Position numbers and translations under genes: made by a program
The notes under the pieces: model-generated
Databases searched by the model: none
Seen by the model: the letters and a program-made list of their open reading frames with translations, nothing else
Told to the model about the DNA's origin: nothing
Part shown: in pieces, positions 36,875 through 50,314 of the stretch
How the letters are laid out: every line of letters starts with the position of its first letter
Position numbering within the stretch: position 1 is the first letter of the stretch
DNA from: Allobosea psychrotolerans
GTDB taxonomy: Bacteria; Pseudomonadota; Alphaproteobacteria; Rhizobiales; Beijerinckiaceae
Length of the DNA stretch: 64,000 nt
Assembly: GCF_002917105.1 (NCBI RefSeq)
Contig: NZ_PQFZ01000005.1
Location: 53,834-117,833, forward strand
Direction of reading: 5' to 3'

Positions 36875-37804
36875 CTAAGCCGGGCTGGCGGCGCGCGGGG
36901 AGAGGCTGACCTCGCGGGCGCGGTCGAGATGACGGCGCAGCAGGATGGCCGCGATCTCGCGCTCGCCGGCCTCGAGCCGGGCGATGATCTCGAGATGCTC
37001 GCGGCAGGAGACCGCGACGCGCTGCGGCCCGTAGCGCCAGGAATAATTCGCATAACGCCGCAGCCGGCTCTGCTGCTGCAGGGCCAGCAGGAGAAAGCGA
37101 TTGCCGCAGGCGGCGATGAGCCCTTCATGGAATTCGCAGTTCATCTCGAACAGCGCGACGCTCGCGGTTTCGCTCCAGGGCCGCGCCAGCATCGCCTCAT
37201 GGCGGGCGCGCATCTCCGCCAGCCAGGCGGGATCGGGCGCGAAGCTGGCTTCGAGCAGGGCCGCAGGCTCGATGATGCGGCGGAAGGCATAGCTTTCGAC
37301 GATCGCCGCGTCGTCGTTCAGCGGCGAGAAATGCCAGCCATGGCCCGGCCGGCGCTCGACCAGCCCGACTCCGGCGAGCTTGTTCAGGACACGCAGCAGC
37401 AGCGGCCGGCCGATATTGTAGCGCCGCATCATGTCGGCTTCTGAGGCCTGCGACGGCAGCGCGCCGGCGACCCGATCCCTGGCGATCGCGACGCAATAGG
37501 CGTCGAGATCGACGGAAGCCGCGGCGTATTCGCTCTCGGCGATTTCGCTGGCGGGCCGCGCCAGAGCATGGCCGCCATTGGGCAAGGCGGCGATGATGCC
37601 GCGCTCCGCGAGATGGCGCAGCGCAGCGCGCACCGGTGTGCGCGAGACCTGGAGGCGCCGCGCGAAGGCGGCCTCCGGCAGGCGCTGGCCCGGAAGCAGC
37701 GCATCCTGCCGGATCATCTCGAGGATGCGCGGCAGCAGGTCACGCTGCAGCTTGCTCGGAGGTTCGGAGGTCGCTGCGGCCGGCATGATTTTTTTGTGTC
37801 TCAT
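36875..37804 (-). CDS. GntR/FCD-type regulator with two winged-helix segments (paralog 1)
   Basis: In this 309-aa protein the first winged helix is LLPRILEMIRQDALLPGQRLPEAAFARRLQVSRTPVRAALRHLAERGIIAALPNGGHALAR. A second helix-turn-helix-like segment is MMRRYNIGRPLLLRVLNKLAGVGLVERRPGHGWHFSP, and an FCD-like helical ligand domain ends the protein (AFRRIIEPAALLEASF...FHEGLIAACGNRFLLLAL). The same unusual double layout is found in the regulator at 48919-49827. It is divergent from the amidase gene and probably controls the island through the site at 37813. Confidence 0.8.
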   Translation of the reverse strand: MRHKKIMPAAATSEPPSKLQRDLLPRILEMIRQDALLPGQRLPEAAFARRLQVSRTPVRAALRHLAERGIIAALPNGGHALARPASEIAESEYAAASVDLDAYCVAIARDRVAGALPSQASEADMMRRYNIGRPLLLRVLNKLAGVGLVERRPGHGWHFSPLNDDAAIVESYAFRRIIEPAALLEASFAPDPAWLAEMRARHEAMLARPWSETASVALFEMNCEFHEGLIAACGNRFLLLALQQQSRLRRYANYSWRYGPQRVAVSCREHLEIIARLEAGEREIAAILLRRHLDRAREVSLSPRAASPA

Positions 37805-37812
37805 GGTTTGAC

Positions 37813-37825
37813 AAAATACATATTT
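37813..37825. promoter_or_regulatory. Candidate GntR operator AAAATACATATTT
   Basis: An AT-rich near-palindrome lies in the 58-bp divergent region between the GntR gene and the amidase gene. A near-identical AAATACATATT is at 36856-36866, just downstream of the regulator gene. Such AT-rich words are rare in this GC-rich sequence. Confidence 0.5.
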
Positions 37826-37862
37826 CTCGCCTCCATAGAAAGCTCTGCAGCCGGAGCCTGAG

Positions 37863-39326
37863 ATGCCGCCTGACCAGCCCCCAGCGGTATCGCCCGCCGA
37901 CCGGATCGACGCGAACGCTTTGTGGCGGCTCGAGGCTCACGAACTTGCGCGACTGATCGCTCTCGGCCTGGTCTCGAGCCGCGAGGCGGTCCTCTCCTGT
38001 CTTGCCCGGATGGATGCGGTCAACGGCACGCTCAACGCCGTGATCCGGCGCTTCGATGCCGAGGCGCTTGCTGATGCCGACGCCGCCGATGCGATGCGGG
38101 CACGCGGCGAGACGCTCGCGCCGCTCCACGGCATCCCCGTCACCGTCAAATGCAATATCGACCAGAAGGGCCATCCGACCGATGGCGGCGTCGAGTCCTA
38201 TCGCGACCTCATCGCCGAGAGCGACAACCCGGTCGTCGCCAATCTCCGCAATGCGGGCGCCGTGATCATCGGGCGCACCAATACGCCCTGCTATTCGATG
38301 CGCTGGCACACCGAGAACGCGCTGCATGGCGCGACGCTCAACCCATGGCATGCCGGCATCACGCCCGGCGGATCGAGCGGCGGCGCGGCGGCTGCGGTCG
38401 CGGCCGGCATCGGGCCGATCGCCCATGGCAACGACATCGCCGGATCGGTGCGCTACCCGGCCTATTGCTGCGGGCTCGTCGGCCTGCGGCCAAGCTTCGG
38501 CCGGGTGCCGTCGATGAACGCGACCGCCAAGGGGCCGGCGGCGATTTCCTCGCAGCTCATGGCGGTCCAGGGCCCGCTGACGCGTAGCGTGCGCGATTGC
38601 GAGATCGCCTTCGAGGCGATGGCAAAGCCGAGCCCGCGCGATCCGCGCTGCGTCGTGCCGGCGCCGTTTGCGCCCCTGCCCGGGCCCTTGCGCGTCGCCT
38701 TGGTGGCCCGGCCGAAAGGCGCCGTCGTCGACCCGAGCGTGACCGAAGCGGTACTCAGCGCCGGCCGCGCGCTCGCGGCTGCCGGCGTCATCGTCGAGGA
38801 GATCGAGCCGCCGGACCTGGCCGGCATCGGTGAGCTCTGGGGCAAGCTCGCCACGGCCGATGTGATGGCCAACCTCCAGCCGCTGATCGAACAGAACGGC
38901 GATGAGGGCATCCGCCGCGCGCTGGCGCTCTGGGACGAGGCCTTTCCGCGCTACAGCGCGGCCGACACGCTGGCGGCGCTCGGCGAGCGCGCGCTCGCTT
39001 TGCGCAACTGGCAGCTCTTCTTCGAGGATTATCCGGTCGTGGTGATGCCGTGCTCCTATGCACCGCCCTTCCCTGTCGGCTTCGACCTCCGGGATGTCAG
39101 GGAGACCACCCGCGTCCTGGCGGCGCAGAGCCCGCTGATGGCGATTTCGGTGCTCGGCCTGCCCGGGCTGGCGGTGCCGACCGCTCCGCAAGGCGGGATA
39201 CCCGCAGGCGTCCAGATCGTCGCCGGGCGCTTCCGCGAGGATCTCTGCTTCCGCGTCGGCGCCATCATCGAGGCGCATCTGCCCCCGGCGACGCCGCGCG
39301 ATCCAAACCCGACAGGAACATTCTGA
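37863..39326 (+). CDS. Amidase signature-family amidase
   Basis: This 487-aa enzyme has a complete Ser-Ser-Lys catalytic set: Lys in PLHGIPVTVKCNID, the Gly/Ser-rich core TPGGSSGGAAAAVAAG, and the nucleophilic Ser in HGNDIAGSVRYPAYCCGLVGLRPSFGRVPS. The N-terminus ALWRLEAHELARLIALGLVSSREAVLSCLARMDAVNGTLNAV is typical of the family. It hydrolyses an amide to acid and ammonia; the substrate is unknown. Its stop overlaps the next start (TGATG), coupling it to the hydrolase. It opens the rightward part of the catabolic island. Confidence 0.87.
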   Translation: MPPDQPPAVSPADRIDANALWRLEAHELARLIALGLVSSREAVLSCLARMDAVNGTLNAVIRRFDAEALADADAADAMRARGETLAPLHGIPVTVKCNIDQKGHPTDGGVESYRDLIAESDNPVVANLRNAGAVIIGRTNTPCYSMRWHTENALHGATLNPWHAGITPGGSSGGAAAAVAAGIGPIAHGNDIAGSVRYPAYCCGLVGLRPSFGRVPSMNATAKGPAAISSQLMAVQGPLTRSVRDCEIAFEAMAKPSPRDPRCVVPAPFAPLPGPLRVALVARPKGAVVDPSVTEAVLSAGRALAAAGVIVEEIEPPDLAGIGELWGKLATADVMANLQPLIEQNGDEGIRRALALWDEAFPRYSAADTLAALGERALALRNWQLFFEDYPVVVMPCSYAPPFPVGFDLRDVRETTRVLAAQSPLMAISVLGLPGLAVPTAPQGGIPAGVQIVAGRFREDLCFRVGAIIEAHLPPATPRDPNPTGTF

Positions 39327-40165
39327 TGGCCTTCGTCCGGCGCCACGGCGTCAAGCTCTCGGCCTATGATTTCGGCCGCACCACGATCCATGCCTGCCAG
39401 GCCGATCCGCGCTTCAGCTGGTGCGCCTATGTGCCGGAGGATTACGACGAGGCCGGCACGGAGCGCTACCGGCTGCTGGTCTCGGTCCATGGCACGATGC
39501 GCGACATGGTCGCCTATCGCGACGATTTCATCCCCTTCGCCGAACGCAGCCGCTGCATCGTGCTGGCGCCGCTGTTTCCCGCCGGCATCACCAGCCCGGG
39601 CGAGCTCTCCTCCTACAAGCTGATGACGCCGTCTGCGGTGCACTACGACGCGGTCCTGCTCGCCATGGTCGAAGAGGTGCAGGCGCGCTACCGGATCGAC
39701 GGCGATCGTTTCGCGCTGTTCGGCTTTTCCGGCGGCGGGCATTTCGCGCACCGCTTCCTCTATCTGCACCCCAAACGCCTCTCGGCCGTGTCGATCGGTG
39801 CGCCGGGCATCGTGACGCTGCTCGATTTCGAGCATGATTTCTGGGTCGGCGTGCGCGATTTCGAGGCCGTGATGGGCCGCCCGATCGATCTCGAAGCGAT
39901 GCGCCAGGTCGCGGTCCAGATGGTCATCGGCGGCAACGATACCGAGACCTGGGAGATCACCCTGGCCAAAGGCTCTGCCCTATGGCGCCCCGATGGCGAG
40001 ATCGCCGGCCTGAACCGGCCCGAGCGCATGCGCGCCCTCAAAGCGAGCTTCGAAAACCACGGCATCGCGGTGCGCCACGACGTCGTGCAGGGCGTTGCCC
40101 ATCGCCATGCCGGGCTGCTGCCGGCGGTGACCGATTTCCTGGCCGAGGCGATGCCGCAGCCATGA
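39326..40165 (+). CDS. Alpha/beta hydrolase (esterase/polyhydroxyalkanoate depolymerase-like)
   Basis: This 279-aa protein shows the oxyanion region LLVSVHGTMRDMVAYRDDF, the nucleophile elbow FGFSGGGHFAHRFLYLHPKRLSAVSIGAPG and a closing His in VVQGVAHRHAGLLP. The acid is probably in the GGNDTETWE loop. No signal peptide is present, so it should be cytosolic. It is coupled to the amidase by overlapping codons and may act on the same compound or its product. Confidence 0.75.
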   Translation: MAFVRRHGVKLSAYDFGRTTIHACQADPRFSWCAYVPEDYDEAGTERYRLLVSVHGTMRDMVAYRDDFIPFAERSRCIVLAPLFPAGITSPGELSSYKLMTPSAVHYDAVLLAMVEEVQARYRIDGDRFALFGFSGGGHFAHRFLYLHPKRLSAVSIGAPGIVTLLDFEHDFWVGVRDFEAVMGRPIDLEAMRQVAVQMVIGGNDTETWEITLAKGSALWRPDGEIAGLNRPERMRALKASFENHGIAVRHDVVQGVAHRHAGLLPAVTDFLAEAMPQP

Positions 40166-40174
40166 TGCGTGATC

Positions 40175-40280
40175 CTGGAGCCGTTTCCGATCCAATTGGA
40201 TCGTTCAACAGCTCCAGCGCTTTGTTTTGTCGCGTTTTCTTCGCGCGAACCGGTGCCCGCTTCGCGCGAAAACGCTCCAG
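40175..40280. repeat. Dispersed palindromic repeat, family C (copy 2, diverged)
   Basis: The sequence CTGGAGCCGTTTCCGATCC...CGCGAACCGGTGCCCGCTTC...GAAAACGCTCCAG follows the same layout as the element at 30537-30641 with many substitutions. It lies between the hydrolase gene and the solute-binding protein gene. Confidence 0.7.
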
Positions 40281-40305
40281 CTCCAACCCTTGAAAGAGAC
40301 CGGCC

Positions 40306-41868
40306 ATGCGACGCAGTACCTGCCAAGCCCTTTTCGCCGGATTGGCCCTTGTCGCCGCATCGGCCACCGGATCGGCCTTCGCCCAGTCGGCCCCGACGAC
40401 CAGCCGGCTCGTCGTCGCGCTCAACGCCGATATCCGCAGCCTGGAGCCGGGCGTCAATCGCGACACCAACACCGACACGGTGATCCACCAGCTCTTCGAG
40501 GGGCTCGTCGCCTACAAGACCGACCTCGATGTCGGGCCGGCGCTGGCCGAAAGCTGGACGCTCTCGGACGAGGGCCGGAGCTACACCTTCAAGCTGCGCC
40601 CGGCGGTGTTCCACAATGGCAAGCCGGTGACCTCGGCCGAGATGAAATGGTCCTGGGATCGCCTCAACCAGTCCTCCGCCTGGACCTGCAAGCCTGTCTT
40701 CAACGGCCAGTCGGGCGCCAAGGTCGTGGCGGTCGAGACCCCGGACCCGCAGACCGTCGTGTTCAAGCTCGATCGCGCGAGCGCGATCTTCCTGAAGCAG
40801 CTCGCCAATATCCAGTGCCATGTGCTGGCGATGCATCCCGACAGCCTCGATGCCGAGGGCAAGTGGTCCAAACCGATCGGTTCCGGCCCGCTCAAGCTGC
40901 GGGAATGGCGGCGCGCCGAATATGTCCTGCTCGACAGATTCGCGGAGTATCGCGGCAGCGCCGCGCCCGCCAACGGCTTTTCCGGCGCCCGCGACATGCT
41001 GGTCGAACAGGTCCTGTTCCAGGTGATCCCGGATTCGAGCGCGCGCGAAGCGGCGCTGCTGACCGGCGCGGTCGATATCCTGCACGACATCGAGCCCGAC
41101 CAGATGGAGACGATGAAGCAGCGCGGCATGCGCGTCCTCAGCACGCCGGGGCTGGGTTGGTCGGCGCTCTTGCTGCAGACCGACGATCCGCTGCTGTCGA
41201 ACGTGAGGATCCGGCAGGCGATCGCGCATGCGATCGACCTGAAGCAGATCGCCGAAGCCCAGACGCTCGGCATGGCCCCGGCCAACGCCTCGGCGGTGAG
41301 CAGCTCGACCGCCTTCTACAATGCAGGTTTCGCGGCCTGGCCGGCATATGACCCGGCGCGCGCCCGGGCCCTGCTGAAGGAGGCCGGCTACAAGGGCGAG
41401 CCGCTGCGCCTCCAGACCAACAAGCAATATCAGAGCATGTATCAGAATGCGGTGATGATCGAGCAGATGCTGGCGGGCGCCGGCTTTGCCGTGAAGCTCG
41501 AGGTGATCGACTGGGCGACTCAGCTGTCGAACTATCTCAACGGCCGTTTCCAGATGCAGTCCTTCGGCTATTCCGGCCGCTTCGATCCCGCCCTGATGTA
41601 TGCCGCCTTCGTCGGCGACAAGACCCGGTTCAAGACCGCGCAATATGGCGATCCCGACGCGCTCGCCCTGCTCGGGCAGCTCGATACGACCGACGACCCG
41701 ACTGTGCGCGGCAAGCTCTTCGCCGCGCTCCACGCCAAGGTCCAGGCCGATGTGCCGATCGTCGGGCTCTATTTCGCGCCGATCATCGAGGCGGTGCATC
41801 CGCGCGTCGAGGGCTACGTCTCCTGGCCGGCCAACCGCCCGATCACTTGGGGCGTCCGCAAGCGCTGA
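40306..41868 (+). CDS. ABC transporter family-5 substrate-binding protein
   Basis: This 520-aa protein has an N-terminal signal (ALFAGLALVAASATGSAFAQ). The SBP_bac_5 fold follows: LVVALNADIRSLEPGVNRDTNTDTVIHQLFEGLVAYKTDLDVGPALAESWTLSDEGRSYTFKLRPAVFHNGKPVTSAEMKWSWDRL. Later signatures include IGSGPLKLREWRRAEYVLLD and VRIRQAIAHAIDLKQIA. It is of the dipeptide/nickel/opine binding type. No matching permease genes lie beside it. It shares the island with the amidase and suggests uptake of an amide- or peptide-like ligand. Confidence 0.85.
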   Translation: MRRSTCQALFAGLALVAASATGSAFAQSAPTTSRLVVALNADIRSLEPGVNRDTNTDTVIHQLFEGLVAYKTDLDVGPALAESWTLSDEGRSYTFKLRPAVFHNGKPVTSAEMKWSWDRLNQSSAWTCKPVFNGQSGAKVVAVETPDPQTVVFKLDRASAIFLKQLANIQCHVLAMHPDSLDAEGKWSKPIGSGPLKLREWRRAEYVLLDRFAEYRGSAAPANGFSGARDMLVEQVLFQVIPDSSAREAALLTGAVDILHDIEPDQMETMKQRGMRVLSTPGLGWSALLLQTDDPLLSNVRIRQAIAHAIDLKQIAEAQTLGMAPANASAVSSSTAFYNAGFAAWPAYDPARARALLKEAGYKGEPLRLQTNKQYQSMYQNAVMIEQMLAGAGFAVKLEVIDWATQLSNYLNGRFQMQSFGYSGRFDPALMYAAFVGDKTRFKTAQYGDPDALALLGQLDTTDDPTVRGKLFAALHAKVQADVPIVGLYFAPIIEAVHPRVEGYVSWPANRPITWGVRKR

Positions 41869-42009
41869 CGACCGGGAGATTGGGCGGAGTTTTTCGACGC
41901 AGCCGGCCGGGAGCGGATCGGCATAACTCCGGAAAGCGGACCTTCGCCATCATCCCTGCCGGGCCGGGTGTGTGCCTTGCGCAAGCAGTCGCCCGCTTCG
42001 ACCCAAAAA

Positions 42010-43959
42010 TCAGGAACGATTCATACGGGCCCTGAGTTCGCCGAAAGAGATGATCTCTCCGGCGATCGCACTCGCCGCCACGGTTGGCGGGCTAGCCAGC
42101 CAGACCTTGCCGGGCCCCGACCGGCCTGGAAAATTGCGGTTGATCGCGCTGATCGTGACCTCGTCTCCGCTCGAGGACACACCAGGGCCGCATTGGGCGC
42201 AGGCGCCGCAGGCGGGGTTCAGCAATTCGGCGCCGACCTGGCGAAAGGCTTCGAGATAACCGCGCTCCTCGCAATATCGGCGCACGGCGAGCGTGCCGAA
42301 CTGGAGATAGAACGTCACCCCGTCGCGCACCTTGAGCCCACGCGCCGCCGCCCAGGACAGGACCTCGTGATATTGGTCGAAGTCATCGCGCTTGCCCGCC
42401 GTGCAGGAGCCGCCATAGGCGATGCAGACAGGTACCGGCTGGCCTAGATCGCCATAGGCGATGCCGTTGCCGGGATCGCCTGGCGCGGCGAGCATCGGCG
42501 TCAGCGACGAGCAGTCGAGCGTCAGCGTCGCGGCATAGGGAGCGCCGGGATCGCTCCTCATCCAGTCCTCCAGCACGACATCGACGCCGCGGCGCTCCTT
42601 GATGAAGCGAACCGTCTCGGCATCGGGCGCGACGATGCCGGTGAAGCCGCCGAGTTCAGCCGTCATGTTGGTCAGGGTCGCACGCTCGTCGACCGACATG
42701 GCGACAATGGCAGGCCCCGCGAACTCGAAGACCTTGCCGAGCCCGAGGCCGGCGCGGATGCTCGGTTCGGCCAGCAGCTTCAGGACGACATCCTTCGCCG
42801 TCACACCGATGGGCAGCGCACCATCGAGCCAAATCAGCAGGGTTTGCGGAACCGTGAGCCGCACGGCGCCGGTCATGAAGGCGTTTGCCATGTCGGTCGT
42901 GCCGACGCCGAAGGCGAGGCAGCCAACTGCGCCTGAATGCGGCGTGTGCGAATCCGTGCCGACGCAGATCTCGCCGGGCATGGCGTAGCTCTCCGCCATC
43001 ATGGCGTGCGAAATGCCCTCCGAGCCCTCCTCCCCCGGCAGATAGCCATGATCCTTCAGGCCATAGTCGCTGACAAAGGCGCGGTGGCCCTGCGAGAGCC
43101 GGCGGATCGCCGGCAGCAGGTCGCGCCTGACATGCGTCGGAGAGCGGTGGGCATAGGAGTTGTGATCCTCAAAACAGAGGATCGACTCCGGCTCGTGGAG
43201 CCGCAGCGGCCGGCCATAATGGCGATGCAGCATATGGGCCGCCATCGCCGTGTAGACTTCGTGGATGAAACGGAAGCGCGCCCGCACGAAGCCGCCCGTG
43301 CCGGGCGCAGCGTCCCAATTCCGGCCGCCATGGCTGAGGATGTTGCGCGCGATGATCTTTTGGACGAGCGTTCGCGGCTCAATCGTCGGCGCAGCCGGCC
43401 GCGGTGAAAGACCCATCAGATTGTTCTGGCCGTATGTCAGCAGGCCGCCAGCCGACAGGATGTCCGCCGCCAGCATGTCGCGGCCTTCCAGCAGCTCGGC
43501 GAGCGGGATGGCCTCTCCCGCCTTGACCCTCTCGATGAGGCCGAGATCGGTCGAGGTGAACAGACCGATATTGTCGCAGTTCTGACGGTAGATCCGCTCG
43601 AAGCTCTCGGCGATGACCAGCCGGATTCCGGCCGTGTATTCGGCGAGCGGCGAATGCTCGCGCGACGAGCCCTTGCCGTAACGGCGGCCCGCGACAAGGA
43701 CGGCGAACCCGCCATCACGAAGCCCGTCGAACGGGATGGGATGCGTCTCGCCCGCGCGGAAACCGGTATGCGCATGCCGGCCGATCTCATCGTCATAGTG
43801 GACGAGCGAAGGCAGCGGGGTGATCTCGTCAGTCGAGATATCGTCGCGCAATCGCCCAGCCCTTGCGCGGTCGATGTCCTCTCCGCGGATCTGGCGCCCG
43901 ACGATATCGGGGTCGACGGAGAGGAACAGGATGCGCCCGTCAAATCGGATCGCGTGCAT
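42010..43959 (-). CDS. Aconitase-superfamily dehydratase, swivel-first LeuD-LeuC fusion
   Basis: This 649-aa enzyme has the small 'swivel' (LeuD-like) domain at the N-terminus: RDDISTDEITPLPSLVHYDDEIG...GRRYGKGSSREHSPLAEYTAGIRLVIAESFERIYRQNCDNIGLF, about residues 38-140. The large [4Fe-4S] domain follows (TLVQKIIARN...CVGTDSHTPHSGAVGCLAFGVGTTDMANAFMTG). Likely cluster cysteines are in AYGGSCTAGKRDDF and in PACGACAQCGPG. Canonical aconitase and fused isopropylmalate isomerases place the swivel last; AcnB places it early but with a HEAT-like domain that is absent here. It reversibly hydrates or dehydrates a hydroxy-acid. Neighbouring CoA-transferase and lyase genes suggest a branched C5/C6 dicarboxylate. 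Confidence 0.8.
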   Translation of the reverse strand: MHAIRFDGRILFLSVDPDIVGRQIRGEDIDRARAGRLRDDISTDEITPLPSLVHYDDEIGRHAHTGFRAGETHPIPFDGLRDGGFAVLVAGRRYGKGSSREHSPLAEYTAGIRLVIAESFERIYRQNCDNIGLFTSTDLGLIERVKAGEAIPLAELLEGRDMLAADILSAGGLLTYGQNNLMGLSPRPAAPTIEPRTLVQKIIARNILSHGGRNWDAAPGTGGFVRARFRFIHEVYTAMAAHMLHRHYGRPLRLHEPESILCFEDHNSYAHRSPTHVRRDLLPAIRRLSQGHRAFVSDYGLKDHGYLPGEEGSEGISHAMMAESYAMPGEICVGTDSHTPHSGAVGCLAFGVGTTDMANAFMTGAVRLTVPQTLLIWLDGALPIGVTAKDVVLKLLAEPSIRAGLGLGKVFEFAGPAIVAMSVDERATLTNMTAELGGFTGIVAPDAETVRFIKERRGVDVVLEDWMRSDPGAPYAATLTLDCSSLTPMLAAPGDPGNGIAYGDLGQPVPVCIAYGGSCTAGKRDDFDQYHEVLSWAAARGLKVRDGVTFYLQFGTLAVRRYCEERGYLEAFRQVGAELLNPACGACAQCGPGVSSSGDEVTISAINRNFPGRSGPGKVWLASPPTVAASAIAGEIISFGELRARMNRS

Positions 43960-43965
43960 GGCAGG

Positions 43966-44817
43966 TCAGCTCTGGCTCTCGAATTGCGGTTGCCAGCGCA
44001 GCAGATAGCTCTGCAGCTGGCGCACGATGGTCGCGAGCACGATGCCGACGACCATCATGACGAAGATCGCGACCATCATCTCGGCGGCATTGGCGCGGGC
44101 CTCGGCCTCGATGATCAGCTTGCCGAGACCGCGCTCGGCGCCGATGAACTCGCCGACGATGACGCCGATCAGGGCAAAGGAGACTGCCGGCGTCAGCGAG
44201 GCGAAGACCCAAGCCAGGGCCGAAGGCACGACCACGGTCCGCAGCACGGTCAGTTCCGAGGCTCCAAGCAGCCTTGCCGCCGCGATCTGGTCGCGATCGA
44301 CGGCGCGGGTGCCCTCGAAGGTGTTGAAGAAGACCACGAAGAAGACGACGATCCAGGCGGTGACGATCTTCGACATGTCGCCGAGGCCGAACATCAGGAT
44401 AATGAGCGGAACCAGCGCGATGCGCGGGACCGAGTTCATCGCCACAACATAGGGCTGGAAAATCCGCGAGAGGTAGTCCGAGCGCCCGAGGATCAGGCCG
44501 CAGAGCACGCCCGAAACGGTCCCGAGCGCAAAACCCCACCACATATTCTTGAGCGTGACGAGCAGCGCCAGCCAGAGATTGTTGTCGTTGCGCGCAAAGC
44601 AGGCGCCGAAGCCCGTCGCATCCCCAAGGCAGCTCAATTTCAGGAAGCTGGTCCAGATCATCGACGGCTTGGAGATGAAATAGGGGTCGAGGATGCCGGG
44701 CACGAAGGGCTTGAGCGCAGCGACGCTGCGCAGGCCATAGCCCCACTCCCAAATCCCGAGAGCGACAGCAAGGATGCCGATCTGCCAGAACAAGACTTTC
44801 GCGGAGCTGTGTTTCAT
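43966..44817 (-). CDS. ABC transporter permease (NitT/TauT, SsuC type)
   Basis: This 283-aa multi-pass inner-membrane protein has the permease EAA-type loop EGTRAVDRDQIAAARLLGASELTVLRTVVVPSALAWVFASLTPAVSFALIGVIVGEFIGAERGLG. That is characteristic of the sulfonate/nitrate/taurine transporter permeases. An unusual loop with two cysteines (LKLSCLGDATGFGACFAR, about residues 61-77) lies after the first helix. It sits 2 bp after the ATPase stop and 6 bp before the dehydratase start, so it is clearly one operon. Confidence 0.87.
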   Translation of the reverse strand: MKHSSAKVLFWQIGILAVALGIWEWGYGLRSVAALKPFVPGILDPYFISKPSMIWTSFLKLSCLGDATGFGACFARNDNNLWLALLVTLKNMWWGFALGTVSGVLCGLILGRSDYLSRIFQPYVVAMNSVPRIALVPLIILMFGLGDMSKIVTAWIVVFFVVFFNTFEGTRAVDRDQIAAARLLGASELTVLRTVVVPSALAWVFASLTPAVSFALIGVIVGEFIGAERGLGKLIIEAEARANAAEMMVAIFVMMVVGIVLATIVRQLQSYLLRWQPQFESQS

Positions 44818-44819
44818 GG

Positions 44820-45659
44820 TCAGTCCGCCTTGGTCCGCCGGAATTCTTCGCCGAGCGAATGCCAGATATGCGAGTAGAGCCGGCCGAATTCCGGCGTTTC
44901 CCGCAGCGAGACCGCGTCGCGCGGCCTGATGAAGGGAACCTCGAAATCCTCCTTGAGCCGGCCGGGCCGGGCCGAGAGCAGGATGATGCGGCTCGCCAGC
45001 GTCAGCGCCTCGCCGAGATCATGCGTCACGAACAGCACCGTCTGGCGCTCGCGCTCCCAGATCTCCAGCAGCGTCTTGTGCATTTCGAGCTTGGTATGGG
45101 TATCGAGCGCCCCGAACGGCTCATCCATCAACAGGATTTCGGGCTCCATGATCAGGGTGCGCATCAAGGCGACGCGCTGGCGCATCCCTCCCGAGAGCGT
45201 GCGCGGGAACTTGCCGCCGAACCCCTCCAGCCCGGCCGTTGCGATGGCCCGCGCGACCTTGTCCTTGCGCTCGGCCGCAGCGACGCCGGCGATTTCGAGC
45301 CCGTAGCCGATATTGGCTTCGACCGTGCGCCAGGGAAACACCGTATCGCGCTGGAAGACGTAGCCGACCTTGCGATTGACCTCGCCCAGCCTGACCTCGT
45401 CCTGGTCGATGGCGATGTCGCCGCCGCTGCGGGGGATCAGCCCGGCCACCATGTTCAAAATCGTGCTCTTGCCGCAGCCGGACGGCCCGAGCAGCGCGAC
45501 GAACTCGCCTTGCCTGACCTCGAACGAGACCTTGTCGACCGCCGTGACGCCGATTTCGCCGGAGCCGTAGCGCTTGTCGAGATTCTGGACGGTGATGCGG
45601 ACGCGTTCGCTGGCCGCATTCACCGCTGCGAGTTTCATTCGCTGCGGCGCCCCGATCAT
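44820..45659 (-). CDS. ABC transporter ATP-binding protein (NitT/TauT type)
   Basis: This 279-aa protein has all nucleotide-binding motifs: Walker A GPSGCGKSTIL, Q-loop YVFQRDTVFPW, signature LSGGMRQRVALMRTL, Walker B ILLMDEPFGALD and switch His in LFVTHDLGEAL. It energises the permease encoded next to it. It matches the SsuB/TauB/NrtC family by length and the closing region PFIRPRDAVSLRETPEFGRLYSHIW. Together with the binding protein and permease it completes an uptake system within the island. Confidence 0.9.
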   Translation of the reverse strand: MIGAPQRMKLAAVNAASERVRITVQNLDKRYGSGEIGVTAVDKVSFEVRQGEFVALLGPSGCGKSTILNMVAGLIPRSGGDIAIDQDEVRLGEVNRKVGYVFQRDTVFPWRTVEANIGYGLEIAGVAAAERKDKVARAIATAGLEGFGGKFPRTLSGGMRQRVALMRTLIMEPEILLMDEPFGALDTHTKLEMHKTLLEIWERERQTVLFVTHDLGEALTLASRIILLSARPGRLKEDFEVPFIRPRDAVSLRETPEFGRLYSHIWHSLGEEFRRTKAD

Positions 45660-45663
45660 GGCG

Positions 45664-46710
45664 TCACTTGAACCTGGCCTGGGCGGCGTCGAGGAAACTC
45701 ATATCGACGATGTCCTCGTATTTCGCCGGCGGGATGTCCGTGCCGGGCCGGTACCAGACCTTGCCGCCCCGCTCGAAGGAGGCCTTGTCGATGCGCCCGT
45801 CATAGTCCCAGGTCTGCTTGTCGAAGCCGAGCTCCGCCTTGACCGCGTCGGGGTTCTGGCCGCCGAAGTATTTCTCGCCGACGAGCGCGTAGACCTCGTC
45901 GATCGGCGTCGCCTTCACCCACTTCATCGCCTGGTACATCGCGTTGACGAAGGCCTGGACCGTGGGCTTCTCCTGCTCGCAGGTCTCGGCAAGCGCATAG
46001 ATCACCAGGACGGGCACCGTGCCGCCATAGGCCGAGACGAAGACGCCTGGTTTCGAGGTGTCGAAGATCGCCTTGCCGAAGCCCTTGGCCTCGGCCTCCA
46101 GGACCCAGCCGGGCACTGCCATGATGGCGTCGAATTGCTTGGTCTCCAGCCCTGGCAGCATGGTGTTCAACCCACCTCCGGCGACCCAGGTGACCTTGTC
46201 GCCCAGCCCCTTCGCCTCGAATGTATAGGTGCCGTACATCCAGGTCCCGGAGCCGATCGCGGTCGCGGCGATGATCGGCTTGCCGCCATTGGGGCGCTTA
46301 TAGGCAGCGAGCTTCTCGACGCTGTCGATGCCCGCATCATACAGGTCCCTGCGGACGACGATGTTGGCGATGGACGAGATCATCTGCGTCGCCAGGATGA
46401 TCTTGCATGGCTTGCCGCGGGTCGAGAGCTGCAGGGGGTGGCTCGCATCGCCATGGGCGAAGAGCGCCTGGCCGGCGGCGAGCGTCTGGCGACCATGTGT
46501 CCCGGCATTGCCGACGATGAGCTTGAAATCCAGCTTCTCGGCCTTGAAGAGGCCGCGCGCCTCTGCGATCGCGCCGAGCGCATAGACGGCCGTCGACGGA
46601 CCATAGGCGAGCGAGGCGATGCCTGCCTGCGCCTGAGCCGTGGCGGGGATCAAGCCGGCTCCGACGATGGAACAGCCACCGGCAAGCAGGTGGCGGCGCG
46701 TGAAATCCAT
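45664..46710 (-). CDS. ABC transporter substrate-binding protein (NMT1/SsuA-like)
   Basis: This 348-aa protein starts at MDFTRRHLLAGGCSIVGAGLIPATAQA, a twin-arginine signal with RR at residues 5-6. The binding-protein fold includes IASLAYGPSTAVYALGAIAEARGLFKAEKLDFKLI, AAGQALFAHGDASHPLQL and VQAFVNAMYQAMKWVKATPIDEVY. It is the periplasmic receptor for the adjacent permease and ATPase and lies 4 bp from the ATPase gene. The ligand is probably the acid processed by the enzymes encoded beside it, but residues do not identify it. Confidence 0.85.
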   Translation of the reverse strand: MDFTRRHLLAGGCSIVGAGLIPATAQAQAGIASLAYGPSTAVYALGAIAEARGLFKAEKLDFKLIVGNAGTHGRQTLAAGQALFAHGDASHPLQLSTRGKPCKIILATQMISSIANIVVRRDLYDAGIDSVEKLAAYKRPNGGKPIIAATAIGSGTWMYGTYTFEAKGLGDKVTWVAGGGLNTMLPGLETKQFDAIMAVPGWVLEAEAKGFGKAIFDTSKPGVFVSAYGGTVPVLVIYALAETCEQEKPTVQAFVNAMYQAMKWVKATPIDEVYALVGEKYFGGQNPDAVKAELGFDKQTWDYDGRIDKASFERGGKVWYRPGTDIPPAKYEDIVDMSFLDAAQARFK

Positions 46711-46731
46711 GATGTCCTCCCGAGACATTGA

Positions 46732-47883
46732 CTATCGTGACGTGCCGGTTTTCCGGTCTTGCAGTTCCGCCAGAACCTCTTGCGTGTGTTGGCCGACGGC
46801 TGGCGGATCGCGGCGCTTCTTCAGCCTCTGGCCATCGAAGGTGAAGGGAAGCGCGGGTGTCTTCACCTTGCGCCCGTCGTTCAGAGTGAGCTCGAGCAGA
46901 CCTTCCGATGCGTTGAGATGCGGATCGTCGAAGAGATCGCCCGGCCTGTTCACCGGCGCGAACGGCAGGCCGAGACGTTCGAGGATGGGGCACAGCTGTG
47001 CAATGTCGTACCCGGCAATGATCGCCGCGATCTCCGGAATGATCCAGCTGCGATTGTCGACCCGGCCCTGGCTCGTCGCCAGGCGGGGGTCTTCCAGCCA
47101 GGCTTCGCACCCGAAGGCACGGCAGAACCCGTCCCAGTGCTCCTCCCCGACTATCGAGACGAAGATTTTCTCGCCACCACTCGTGTCGAAGAGATCGTAG
47201 ACCGGCCAGGGCGACTCCTTGACCGACCATGGGATCGATCGCTCGCCGGTAACGCTCTCGAACATCATCGCCTGCGCCATCAGGAAGACGTTGTTCTCGA
47301 ACAGCGCGCTTTGGATGTAGGCTCCCTTGCCGGTGCGGGCGCGTCGTGCCAGCGCCGCCTGGATGGCGATGACGCCGAACATGCCGCCCATGATGTCGTT
47401 GACGGAGGCGCCGGCGCGCATCGGCTTACCCGGCAGGCCGGTCATGAAGGCGAGGCCCCCCATCATCTGGACGACCTCGTCGAGCGCCAGCCGGTTCTCA
47501 TAAGGGCCCGGCAGATAGCCCTTCAGCGAGCAGTAGATCAGCCCCGGAGCCTCCGAGGCCAGCGAGGCATAGTCCAGCCCGTAGCGGCCGAGCAGGCCGG
47601 GGCGGAAATTCTCGATCAGGACATCGGCGTCGATGATGAGCTTGCGCGCGGTCGCCTGCCCCTCCTCGGTGGTGGTGTCGATGACGACGCTGCGCTTGTT
47701 GCGGCTATAGGTGTTGAAGAAGCCCGAGGCGACGCTCTTGAAGTAGCGCGTCCGGTCGCCCTTGGGCGGTTCGACCTTGACGACGTCGGCGCCCAGATCG
47801 GCCAGGATCATGCCGCAGGACGGCCCCATGACCATCTGCGAGAATTCGATGACGCGAACGCCCTCCAGCGGCAGCGCGTTCAT
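46732..47883 (-). CDS. CaiB/BaiF (class III) CoA-transferase
   Basis: This 383-aa protein shows hallmarks of the family: LEGVRVIEFSQMVMGPSCGMILADLGADVVKVEPPKGDRTR, NRNKRSVVIDTTTEEGQ, ADVLIENFRPGLLGRYGLDY, YCSLKGYLPGPYENR and GGMFGVIAIQAALARRARTGKGAYIQSALFEN. The acidic residue in ALFEN is where many relatives have the catalytic Asp. It should move CoA from a donor such as succinyl-CoA to a dicarboxylic acid. Its start overlaps the lyase stop (about 4 bp), so the product is probably fed directly to that lyase. Confidence 0.85.
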   Translation of the reverse strand: MNALPLEGVRVIEFSQMVMGPSCGMILADLGADVVKVEPPKGDRTRYFKSVASGFFNTYSRNKRSVVIDTTTEEGQATARKLIIDADVLIENFRPGLLGRYGLDYASLASEAPGLIYCSLKGYLPGPYENRLALDEVVQMMGGLAFMTGLPGKPMRAGASVNDIMGGMFGVIAIQAALARRARTGKGAYIQSALFENNVFLMAQAMMFESVTGERSIPWSVKESPWPVYDLFDTSGGEKIFVSIVGEEHWDGFCRAFGCEAWLEDPRLATSQGRVDNRSWIIPEIAAIIAGYDIAQLCPILERLGLPFAPVNRPGDLFDDPHLNASEGLLELTLNDGRKVKTPALPFTFDGQRLKKRRDPPAVGQHTQEVLAELQDRKTGTSR

Positions 47884-48806
47884 GCGGCGACTCCGTAAAC
47901 TTTCGGCAGGCCCGCTTCGCGGAGATGGCTCCTGATCCGCTCCTCCGGCAAGGCGGCGGCAAGAAGCTCCGTCGCCGCCAGCAGCCGGCCGAGATCGATG
48001 CCTGTCCTCAGGCCCATCTGCTCGAGCATGAAGACGAGATCCTCGGTTGCGATATTGCCGGACGCGCCGGGCGCGAAGGGGCAGCCGCCCAGTCCACCTG
48101 ATGCGGCGTCGAAGGTGGTGATCCCCGCCTCCAGCCCGGCGAGCACATTGGCGAGGCCGAGCCCCATCGTGTCGTGGAAGTGCAGGCGGATCGGCATGTT
48201 CGGGCCGACGGCGCCACGGACGGCCTTGACCAGCGAGCGCACCAGAGTGGGATCGGCATATCCAACCGTGTCGGCGAGGCCGATCTCATCGACGCCGCGC
48301 GCCACGAGCAACTCCGCGACATGGCAGACGTCGCGCTGCGCCACCCGCCCCTCGATCGAGCAGCCGAAGGCGGTCGGGATGCCGCCCATCACATGCGGTC
48401 GCGCGTCTCCGCGCGCCCTCGCCTGCAAGACGATGTCGCCGACGATCTCGGCCTGCTCGTCGCGGGAGCAGCGCGTATTGGCCACGCTGTGGCTGTGGCT
48501 GGCGGAGACGATGCAATAGAGCATCTGCGCGCCCGCCGCGATGGCGCGCTCGGCCCCCTTGGCATTGGGCACGAGTGCGCCGACCCGCCATTGCGCGCTC
48601 GCGGCCCGGGCGGCCGGCAGAATCTCGGCAGCGTCAGCGAATTGCGGGAACGCCTGCGGCGGCACGAAGCTCGTCGCGTCGAGCTCGGGAAATCCGCACT
48701 GCGCCAGCGCTGCGATCCACGCGCGCTTGGTTGCGGTGGGCATGACCTGCCGGACGAGCTGGAGACCGTCGCGAGGCCCGACCTCGCAGATGTGAATGTC
48801 GCGCAT
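47880..48806 (-). CDS. HMG-CoA-lyase-like enzyme (DRE-TIM family)
   Basis: This 308-aa protein starts at MRDIHICEVGPRDGLQL; the frame upstream is AT-rich promoter sequence. The catalytic Arg-Asp pair is in EVGPRDGLQ, metal-binding His in IRLHFHDTMGLGLANVLAG, and the glycine-rich signature FDAASGGLGGCPFAPGASGNIATEDLVFML holds the active-site Cys. These match hydroxymethylglutaryl-CoA lyase. In this gene context it could equally cleave citramalyl-CoA to pyruvate and acetyl-CoA. It is the first gene of the leftward operon that continues through the CoA-transferase, ABC transporter and dehydratase. Confidence 0.83.
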   Translation of the reverse strand: MRDIHICEVGPRDGLQLVRQVMPTATKRAWIAALAQCGFPELDATSFVPPQAFPQFADAAEILPAARAASAQWRVGALVPNAKGAERAIAAGAQMLYCIVSASHSHSVANTRCSRDEQAEIVGDIVLQARARGDARPHVMGGIPTAFGCSIEGRVAQRDVCHVAELLVARGVDEIGLADTVGYADPTLVRSLVKAVRGAVGPNMPIRLHFHDTMGLGLANVLAGLEAGITTFDAASGGLGGCPFAPGASGNIATEDLVFMLEQMGLRTGIDLGRLLAATELLAAALPEERIRSHLREAGLPKVYGVAA

Positions 48807-48824
48807 GACCACCCTAGAGATGCT

Positions 48825-48858
48825 TATTTTGTTATTTGTCGCGTAGAAATACAAAATA
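48825..48858. promoter_or_regulatory. Imperfect AT-rich palindrome, candidate GntR operator
   Basis: TATTTTG (48825-48831) and CAAAATA (48852-48858) are perfect complements 20 bp apart, and the flanks extend the symmetry imperfectly (GCTTATTTTGTTATTT against AAATACAAAATAGC). It lies between the lyase start and the divergent GntR gene. It resembles the AAAATACATATTT word beside paralog 1. Confidence 0.55.
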
Positions 48859-48918
48859 GCCGATTGGATTGTCAACGGGTGGCTGATAGCTGTTACCACG
48901 CGAAGGAGCGGAAGCGCG

Positions 48919-49827
48919 TTGAGTCAGCGCGAGGCGGATATGAGCGAGATTGAGCCGATTTCGGCCAAGACGATGGAGTTGGCCGGCCAGATCGTCGAGA
49001 TTGCGCGCAGCGAGAACATCGGGCGCGGCGACAGGCTCTACGAACATCGGCTGGCCAATCGGCTCGGCGTCTCGCGCGGGCCGGTGCGCGCGGCCCTGCG
49101 TTCGCTCGCCCAGTCCGGCCTCGCCGAGGCGATTCCCAATAAAGGCTTCGTGCTGGCGCAGGATCTCGACTCCGAGATCGCGCTGAGGGCGCTCCGAGCC
49201 GGCGACACCAGCGAGGCAGCTTACCTCGCCATCGCCAATGACCGACTGACGGGCGCGCTGCCCGATACCGTCAGCGAGGCCGAGCTGATGCGTCGCTATG
49301 ATCTGAAGCGCGCCGAGCTCCTGCGCCTGCTCGACCGGATCGCTTCGGAGGGCTGGGTGGAGCGCCTGCGCGGTTATGGCTGGAAGTTCACCCAGACGCT
49401 CAACAGCCCGCTCGCCTACGCCCAGACCGGGCGGCTGCGCATGATGATCGAGCCCGGCGGTATCCTTGAGCCGACCTTCCAATGGAACGCGGAATTGATG
49501 GGACCGGTGCGTGAGCATCAGAAGCGGGTGCAGGCCGATGGCATGCGCGTCTTCACCCTCTCGGAAATGTTCCGGTTCGGCTGCGAGGTCCATGAGGCCA
49601 TCGCCGAATGCTCGGGCAATGCCTTCCTTGTCGAGACGCTTCGGCGCATCAACCGCGTTCGCCGCCTTTTCGCCTACAAGTTCATCCCCGACCTCCAGAT
49701 GGTCGAACAGCACACGCGCGAGCACCTGCAGCTGCTCGACCTGTTGGAAAAAGGCGACCGCACCGAGGCTGCCGCGCTCATGCGCACCCACCTCCATTGG
49801 AGCGGAGGCGGCGACCAGATCGCCTGA
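48919..49827 (+). CDS. GntR/FCD-type regulator with two winged-helix segments (paralog 2)
   Basis: This protein is 302 aa from a TTG start behind AAGGAG (48903-48908); an ATG at 48940 is the alternative. The first winged helix is VEIARSENIGRGDRLYEHRLANRLGVSRGPVRAALRSLAQSGLAEAIPNKGFVLAQ. The second segment is LMRRYDLKRAELLRLLDRIASEGWVERLRGYGWKF. The FCD-like domain includes GRLRMMIEPGGILEPTFQ and CEVHEAIAECSGNAFLVETLRRINRVRR. It parallels the regulator at 36875-37804 segment by segment. It is divergent from the lyase-to-dehydratase operon and likely controls it. Confidence 0.82.
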   Translation: MSQREADMSEIEPISAKTMELAGQIVEIARSENIGRGDRLYEHRLANRLGVSRGPVRAALRSLAQSGLAEAIPNKGFVLAQDLDSEIALRALRAGDTSEAAYLAIANDRLTGALPDTVSEAELMRRYDLKRAELLRLLDRIASEGWVERLRGYGWKFTQTLNSPLAYAQTGRLRMMIEPGGILEPTFQWNAELMGPVREHQKRVQADGMRVFTLSEMFRFGCEVHEAIAECSGNAFLVETLRRINRVRRLFAYKFIPDLQMVEQHTREHLQLLDLLEKGDRTEAAALMRTHLHWSGGGDQIA

Positions 49828-50314
49828 ACTGCGCCTGGCGCGCTTTCCTGCCAAATCCAGGCAATCACAAGTCCTGGCAATGAGACGGCAGCCATCGCCC
49901 GCTCAACCGGGCTCCGCAAGCATTGAAGACCGGGAGATCGGGCGGGCCACTTCAACACGATCGGCCACACGCCGGACATTGACCGATGTCGGAAACCGGA
50001 CACGCGCATGTATCTCGTCATGTAACCACGCCAGCCGAATTCCAGCCTCCAGTTGCTGACAGCTGCCGCAGGAAATCAAACGAAGCGGCTGGCGCTTCAC
50101 AAGTCGCGCGTGCCGCGACCTGGCGAATGGCAGGCCGATCGCGGTCCAGGGGTCTGAATGCTCGCCCCCATGCTCCGGAATCCACGCCACGCGGACGCCA
50201 GCCTCAGGCGGAAGCTGGTCGTCTTGCTCGTCATCTCTCCATTTCACGGCGCTGAGCCGCCCGACAAACCCAATGCAGCCCAGACCAAGTGGCGCGCATC
50301 TGCGACAAAGCAGA
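49828..50314. other. 487-bp gap without a recognisable gene
   Basis: An open frame on the minus strand crosses this gap but gives no recognisable protein. GACCGGGAGAT(C/T)GGGCGG occurs here (about 49929) and also just after the solute-binding gene (about 41872), so a degenerate repeat may be present. I see no promoter or RNA gene with confidence. Confidence 0.35.

Follow-up and report, generated by a model that had tools for sequence, protein, structure and literature searches.

Two adjacent regulatory modules headed by tandem winged-helix GntR/FCD regulators in Bosea, with a predicted 24-bp operator and a possible citraconate route

Here, we present a computational analysis of a 64-kb stretch of a Bosea genome (6.39 Mb in 57 contigs), referred to as the window, in which positions 36875 to 49827 harbor two GntR/FCD regulators, R1 and R2, each divergent from its own operon. 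The best explanation for the whole, with a probability of roughly 0.5, is that the region consists of two modules, that both regulators use a long operator, and that the second module contains a citraconate route. The initial annotation had described both regulators as a GntR helix followed by a second winged segment and an FCD domain, an architecture confirmed by Pfam and AlphaFold, and the gene families that it had named for the two divergent operons were recovered with Pfam and NCBIfam.

Module 2 consists of R2 on the plus strand (48940-49827, assigned by Pfam), which most likely starts at ATG 48940 rather than at TTG 48919, and of a divergent operon on the minus strand. This operon begins with a lyase of the hydroxymethylglutarate (HMG)-coenzyme A (CoA) lyase family, predicted to be a citramalyl-CoA lyase (47880-48806; PF00682), for which ATG 48806 is the most likely start rather than GTG 48899. 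It is followed by a family III CoA-transferase (46732-47883; PF02515), an NMT1/SsuA-type solute-binding protein (45664-46728; PF13379 and PF09084), an ATPase (44820-45659; PF00005) and a permease of the sulfonate/taurine type (43966-44817; PF00528, with NCBIfam matches under the cut-off) of an ATP-binding cassette (ABC) transporter, and a hydratase (42010-43959). The latter had been listed as a dehydratase; it is present as a single fused protein with a LeuD-like domain first (PF00694) and a LeuC-like domain second (PF00330).

Judged from gene order and fusions, it is highly probable that the hydratase, the CoA-transferase and the lyase of this operon serve one pathway, because the order lyase-transferase-binding protein-ATPase-permease-hydratase is kept in Microvirga sp. 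VF16, there behind a LysR-type regulator (Pfam), and because on two Roseomonas plasmids the lyase is fused to the transferase, giving one protein of 755 or 751 residues beside the hydratase (L090:5713-7980 and L096:5737-7992). The entire operon is kept in two other Bosea genomes, G002 and G028, with 79-92% identity per gene. In Bosea G017 and G021, R2, the hydratase (65-66%) and the transferase (82%) are kept and a family 5 transporter is present instead. In Acidiphilium, LeuC and LeuD are separate proteins and accompany lyase and transferase. Regulator and transporter are thus most likely exchangeable parts of module 2, and the hydratase also occurs apart from lyase and transferase. Scoring no more than three candidates per genome, a search of 347 genomes of the wider order and class found the window's own fused hydratase alone at E<=1e-140, and a search of 385 genomes at E<=1e-70 found it in the host and one further genome; among plasmids, 33 records matched it with at least 80% coverage.

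Several side observations concern these loci. In G017 and G021, the lyase beside the 82% identical transferase is only 43-44% identical, as though it had been replaced (L049:9949-12041 and L048:6775-8855), and the transporter genes of L049 precede a gene for a hydrolase with a beta-lactamase fold. The Microvirga operon contains an additional hexapeptide-repeat protein, a 42% relative of which, annotated as gamma carbonic anhydrase, sits after lyase and transferase in Azospirillum. After the fused hydratase, Comamonadaceae (L092:10972-11481 and L094:10971-11435) carry a binding protein of the tripartite-transporter type and a gene with the annotation rraA. In Acidiphilium (L103:8945-11488), an isochorismatase-family gene and two genes annotated as polysaccharide deacetylases lie between lyase and LeuC, with Pfam applied to the isochorismatase-family protein and one of the two deacetylases; they might feed a half-amide or imide of the maleate type into the route.

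For the chemistry of module 2, we propose tentatively, a little short of even odds, a route in which the NMT1-type ABC transporter would import a C5 dicarboxylate, the fused hydratase would convert citraconate to (R)-citramalate, the CoA-transferase would form (R)-citramalyl-CoA and the lyase would cleave it to pyruvate and acetyl-CoA. The best PDB matches of the hydratase are subunits of isopropylmalate/citramalate isomerase, and its alignment retains the three cluster cysteines and the GSSREH motif. Its loop SLVH resembles YLVY of isopropylmalate/citramalate isomerase, with V in place of the R found in YLRT of homoaconitase, whose loop arginine binds the extra carboxylate. Because the known substrates of hydratases of the aconitase branch carry hydroxyl and carboxylate on one carbon, citramalate fits the enzyme better than HMG. 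The lyase keeps the segments EVGPRDGLQ, HFHDT and GGLGGCPFAPG, and the transferase, with an aligned aspartate, matches the PDB entries 9br6, a succinate-hydroxymethylglutarate CoA-transferase, and 4ed9. The initial annotation had left two routes side by side, one from mesaconate or citraconate through citramalyl-CoA and one from methylglutaconate through HMG-CoA; the citramalate type now appears the better one, with mesaconate less likely as substrate than its cis isomer citraconate.

The following findings weigh against this route. The lyase scores 280.8 bits and thus exceeds the 246-bit cut-off of the NCBIfam HMG-CoA lyase model NF004283, which models a subfamily and not a substrate, and among named transferases the closest are those acting on HMG or glutarate. 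In Bradyrhizobium, the lyase, the transferase and the NMT1 transporter occur with an R2-like regulator (45%), and the hydratase is absent. Finally, lyase and transferase lie within about 8 kb of the fused hydratase at four of ten loci outside Bosea (two Roseomonas, Microvirga and one Comamonadaceae), and neither is nearby at the other six (L089, L091, L092, L095, L097 and L098, from Caballeronia, Comamonas, Diaphorobacter, two Paraburkholderia and G781), which slightly lowered our confidence in a shared pathway.

Two other substrates have to be weighed against citraconate. It is possible, though less likely, that module 2 acts on another 2-hydroxy-2-alkylsuccinate or on an unmethylated analogue, such as maleate/(R)-malate, 2,3-dimethylmalate or acids with longer alkyls. 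The chemistry would be identical, LeuCD-type enzymes take several acids of this type, and the isochorismatase and deacetylase genes of Acidiphilium would be in keeping with a maleate-type acid supplied as its cyclic imide or half-amide; however, no positive sequence evidence points to a larger or smaller substrate. Less probable still is a route in which 3-methylglutaconate would be hydrated to HMG, activated by CoA transfer and cleaved to acetoacetate and acetyl-CoA. The lyase score and the similarity of the transferase to succinate-hydroxymethylglutarate CoA-transferase speak for HMG, but the hydratase belongs to the isopropylmalate/homoaconitate branch, whose known substrates, unlike HMG, have the hydroxyl next to a carboxylate, and homologs of both LeuC and LeuD lie beside the lyase in Acidiphilium. 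A further point in favor of HMG is that the aconitase superfamily has a known member acting as a dehydratase on mevalonate 5-phosphate, which is a beta-hydroxy acid (PMC8184944, PMC10040528).

The citraconate route can be compared with two known systems. A pair consisting of an (R)-specific citramalyl-CoA lyase, which is HMG-lyase-like, and a CoA-transferase comes from Chloroflexus. These enzymes are classified as EC 4.1.3.46 and EC 2.8.3.20 in PMC8307300, and their likeness to our prediction lies in the same two reactions, by name rather than by sequence. Unlike that pair, lyase and transferase come here together with a hydratase, a transporter and a local regulator, a combination suggestive of catabolism. 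The second system is the itaconate/mesaconate cluster of Pseudomonas (Ict, Ich and Ccl), which likewise activates a branched C5 acid with CoA and cleaves it to pyruvate and acetyl-CoA. Its lyase is CitE-type and works with an acyl-CoA hydratase; the R2 operon differs in that its lyase belongs to the HMGL family and its hydratase to the aconitase family (Pfam). The Pseudomonas route is (S)-specific, and neither (R)-citramalate nor citraconate supported growth with the transplanted cluster (PMC9875883); the C. necator enzyme corresponding to the Pseudomonas transferase was inactive with (R)-citramalate (PMC12290011). In the open-access literature on citraconate hydratase and citraconate utilization, titles and abstract beginnings reported no gene cluster. 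The R2 operon is a concrete candidate gene set for the use of citraconate and (R)-citramalate, a capacity not conferred by the Pseudomonas cluster tested (PMC9875883); if true, the route via (R)-citramalate would be the counterpart of the known (S) route.

The regulators of both modules carry two winged helices per subunit and thereby depart from the single one usual in FCD-type GntR regulators. In Pfam, R1 and R2 match an N-terminal GntR winged helix (PF00392, above the cut-off in both, with two GntR stretches in R1) and a C-terminal FCD domain (PF07729; E 3.5e-21 in R1 and 2.6e-13 in R2). The middle segment searched alone matches GntR weakly (E 4.7e-5 and 6.2e-4, respectively), in both cases under Pfam's cut-off. 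The AlphaFold models, which rested on only five sequences, have mean predicted local distance difference test (pLDDT) scores of 75.6 for R1 and 78.8 for R2 and contain a helix-helix-helix-strand-strand unit twice, with the FCD helices after it. The top Foldseek matches of the R1 model were PmiR, Lar and VanR over about 210-220 columns, a span that fits one head plus FCD; some lower-ranked matches span 280-308 columns with a large root-mean-square deviation. A set of 61 distinct regulators, obtained from 83 extracted from the retrieved loci and thus smaller than the total of search matches, was used for residue and site counts. In all of them, S54, R55, P57, G69 and G78 of the first head and Y129, G154, G156 and W157 of the second are invariant, and R133 is present in 59. 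Two GntR stretches were also found by Pfam in all four plasmid-borne regulators scanned (L099, L100, L102 and L145).

Members of the FadR/FCD subfamily such as FadR, LldR, VanR (Atu1419) and PmiR share the GntR winged helix, the FCD domain and the divergent operon with R1 and R2 but not the additional winged-helix domain. In the open-access full-text literature, with subscription papers and preprints outside the scope, no description of a tandem or double-GntR FCD architecture was found, nor any paper on FCD operators with two helical turns; in a broader open-access search, the titles and abstract beginnings of the papers listed named no tandem-head regulator. The layout of the two regulators, called unusual at the outset, is not unique to them. 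The host genome encodes four full-length tandem-head copies among 44 FCD matches, and tandem-head regulators were matched in 32 of 61 genomes, host included (E<=1e-20). R1 further matches 143 plasmid records, 142 of them with at least 80% coverage, including plasmids of Agrobacterium, Rhizobium, Microvirga, Chelatococcus, Tistrella and Burkholderia.

R1 and R2 are only 37-40% identical to each other; R1 is nearer to the paralog C1:88182 of the same genome (47%), and R2 is 98% identical to a copy in Bosea sp. OK403. In a maximum-likelihood tree of 63 rows, 62 of them different, R1 groups with the Tistrella and Pseudoroseomonas regulators (support 99/81) within a 41-row clade (100/99) that includes C1:88182, and R2 falls into a separate clade with Raskinella and Bradyrhizobium copies (100/98); some joins, that of the Bradyrhizobium row included, are unsure owing to long branches. 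An origin of R1 and R2 as sister duplicates is rejected on these separate clades, and the supposed duplication of one regulatory system is not supported.

Comparison of the intergenic regions points to the operator. On the R2 side, the alignment of seven genomes conserves one AT-rich block, and on the R1 side a block is conserved in six Bosea genomes together with Tistrella and, less clearly, Pseudoroseomonas. In both blocks, TGT and ACA are separated by exactly 18 nucleotides (nt). The predicted R1 operator, a footprint across orthologs, is TGTCTCATGGTTTGACAAAATACA (37797-37820), and the predicted R2 operator, a footprint in seven aligned R2-side regions with the window among them, is TGTTATTTGTCGCGTAGAAATACA (48830-48853). 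Their distances of 42 nt to the ATG of the amidase gene and of 23 nt to that of the lyase gene are suited to repression. R1 is annotated on the minus strand at 36875-37804; since the predicted operator overlaps ATG 37804, its translation may start at ATG 37786 instead. The window contains four TGT-N18-ACA matches, two of which (at 2626 and 41597) we attribute to chance.

Among the 61 distinct regulators, 43 have TGT-N18-ACA between -220 and +60, rising to 44 with a reach of 300 nt. The next most frequent spacing, N11, occurs in 14, and each other tested spacing in at most seven. With 19 clade representatives, picked after the 61-row count from three clades already showing the motif, the N18 site was present in 15 and other spacings in at most six (N11 in six); 300 dinucleotide shuffles gave a mean of 0.26 and a maximum of 2. 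This set leaves out the C5:171590 pair, an eight-row clade without the site, and L017, L038 and L039. Positions 6-7 are TT in all 18 tabulated sites (16 regulator sites and two operon sites), which were hand-picked without this feature as a criterion. None of 29 other FCD regulators encoded by the host has the site upstream (0/29); these controls are the 30 loci returned for the 44 FCD matches minus R1, positioned by the FCD match and not by a known start codon, and they were taken as single-headed because four full-length tandem copies were found in the genome. A search pattern derived from R1 and the C1 paralog, with one mismatch allowed, hit eight places in the 6.39 Mb and its reversed control three; the eight comprise R1 and C1 by construction, the R2 site with one mismatch, one before the class III aminotransferase gene by the C1 paralog and four elsewhere. 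Three of seven held-out plasmid copies carry the exact site (two Microvirga and Chelatococcus), and Bradyrhizobium, whose regulator is not directly divergent, has a site immediately before the lyase gene. Next to the C1 paralog regulator, a near-perfect 24-bp palindrome precedes a class III aminotransferase gene (L009:8958-8981).

The exact site is missing within 300 nt in 17 of the 61 regulators, including the paralog C5:171590 and its Agrobacterium relative, and in four of the seven held-out copies, of which two show a form with three mismatches, again at -51, and the others nothing under four mismatches; moreover, most site-bearing rows are close Bosea orthologs. No footprint was visible upstream of the eight-row clade (L016, L018-L020, L022-L024 and L026). 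Even with these points on the other side, the comparative evidence makes a 24-bp operator TGT-N18-ACA shared by the regulators of three clades highly probable.

A dimer of R1 or R2 would very probably bind this operator, located between the regulator gene and the divergent operon. The bound regulator would most likely repress both, with release once the FCD domain takes up an acid ligand. In TGT-N18-ACA, the half-site centres lie about two DNA turns apart. From GT to AC the predicted operator has 18 nt, compared with 2-3 nt in known FadR-type sites, for which PMC4494728 also lists exceptions of other symmetry, e.g. NanR and BioR. According to the same paper, ordinary FadR-type sites have additional, weaker boxes at a distance of 7-12 nt from their centre (PMC4494728), so that outer boxes are not without parallel. 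In the simplest reading, the added head would extend the dimer's reach. In the eight-row clade, which is one clade and represents one event, the first head is changed at E44 and R59 and the second at R138, with R55, G154, G156 and W157 unchanged. This ties the heads to the site without assigning its parts to either head; reading of the outer half-site by the first head alone may still hold but is no longer favored, as this clade is altered in both.

Alternatively, the second winged segment would be a structural spacer and TGT-N18-ACA a promoter element or the site of another protein. Promoter elements are likewise AT-rich, and in the second recognition helix the equivalent of R55 is kept in 59 of 61 regulators and that of R59 in only 3 of 61 (heads aligned by eye). 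We nevertheless consider a mere spacer improbable, given the lack of the site upstream of the 29 other FCD regulators, the constant length of 24 bp across three clades and several orders, and the changes in both heads of the site-free clade. Going beyond the shared operator, it is conceivable, if somewhat doubtful, that a widespread class of two-headed FCD regulators uses the extra head as a ruler which moves the spacing from 2-3 to 18 nt, one member controlling citraconate/(R)-citramalate catabolism. If binding is confirmed, the predicted operator could guide the mapping of regulons across many Alphaproteobacteria, and it would be a clean case of an added DNA-binding domain altering operator geometry.

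Module 1 consists of R1 on the minus strand and, on the plus strand, of an amidase (37863-39326; PF01425, NF005687 above the cut-off), an alpha/beta-hydrolase-like protein (39326-40165) and a family 5 solute-binding protein (40306-41868; PF00496). The hydrolase-like protein has no Pfam match and a weak NCBIfam match of the polyhydroxyalkanoate depolymerase type (E 1.3e-9, under the cut-off). Within 37863-41868, no permease or ATPase accompanies the binding protein. Pseudoroseomonas and Tistrella keep module 1 (regulator 54-56%, amidase 53-61%, hydrolase 65-67%, binding protein 54-55%), with the hydrolase homolog in the same position; an aminotransferase lies on the opposite side, and ABC permeases are close by. 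At E<=1e-8 these loci contain no match to lyase, transferase or hydratase, and they lend no support to a substrate common to both modules. Module 1 would serve the uptake and hydrolysis of a small amide unrelated to the substrate of module 2.

That the two are independent regulator-operator-operon modules, adjacent in this lineage, is almost certain, since they stand apart in other loci, co-occur in one of 36 genomes and have regulators of different clades. In G007, another Bosea, the R1 module directly joins the genes that stand right of R2 in the window (from 49896), and window positions 41917-49853, i.e. the lyase operon and R2, form a single 7.9-kb block on a different contig. G019 keeps the left flank up to window position 41908 and then skips to 55647. 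Among the 36 other congeneric genomes covered by both regulator searches, R1 orthologs (at least 78%) occur in four and R2 orthologs (at least 71%) in five, and both only in G007, on contigs 18 and 3. A single pathway framed by the two regulators, as first assumed, is rejected given this split, the co-occurrence in 1 of 36 genomes and the separate clades; what most likely holds of that pathway is the joint role of hydratase, CoA-transferase and lyase, without the amidase and hydrolase of module 1. Likewise, it is not the whole block that is conserved: the modules recur separately, and it is the gene order of module 2 that is kept in Microvirga. A cross-regulated pathway in which amidase and hydrolase feed the hydratase is very improbable, for although the modules adjoin here and one regulator might read both operators, alike as these are in length and ends, the modules lie apart in all other loci read and R1 and R2 stem from different clades.

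In the window, the 7.9-kb R2 block is flanked by two copies of a 32-bp imperfect direct repeat (41856-41887 and 49914-49945) with 28 identities, and may have been gained here or lost in G007. The left copy takes in the 3' end of the binding-protein gene of module 1, and the right copy resembles the end of a lost relative.

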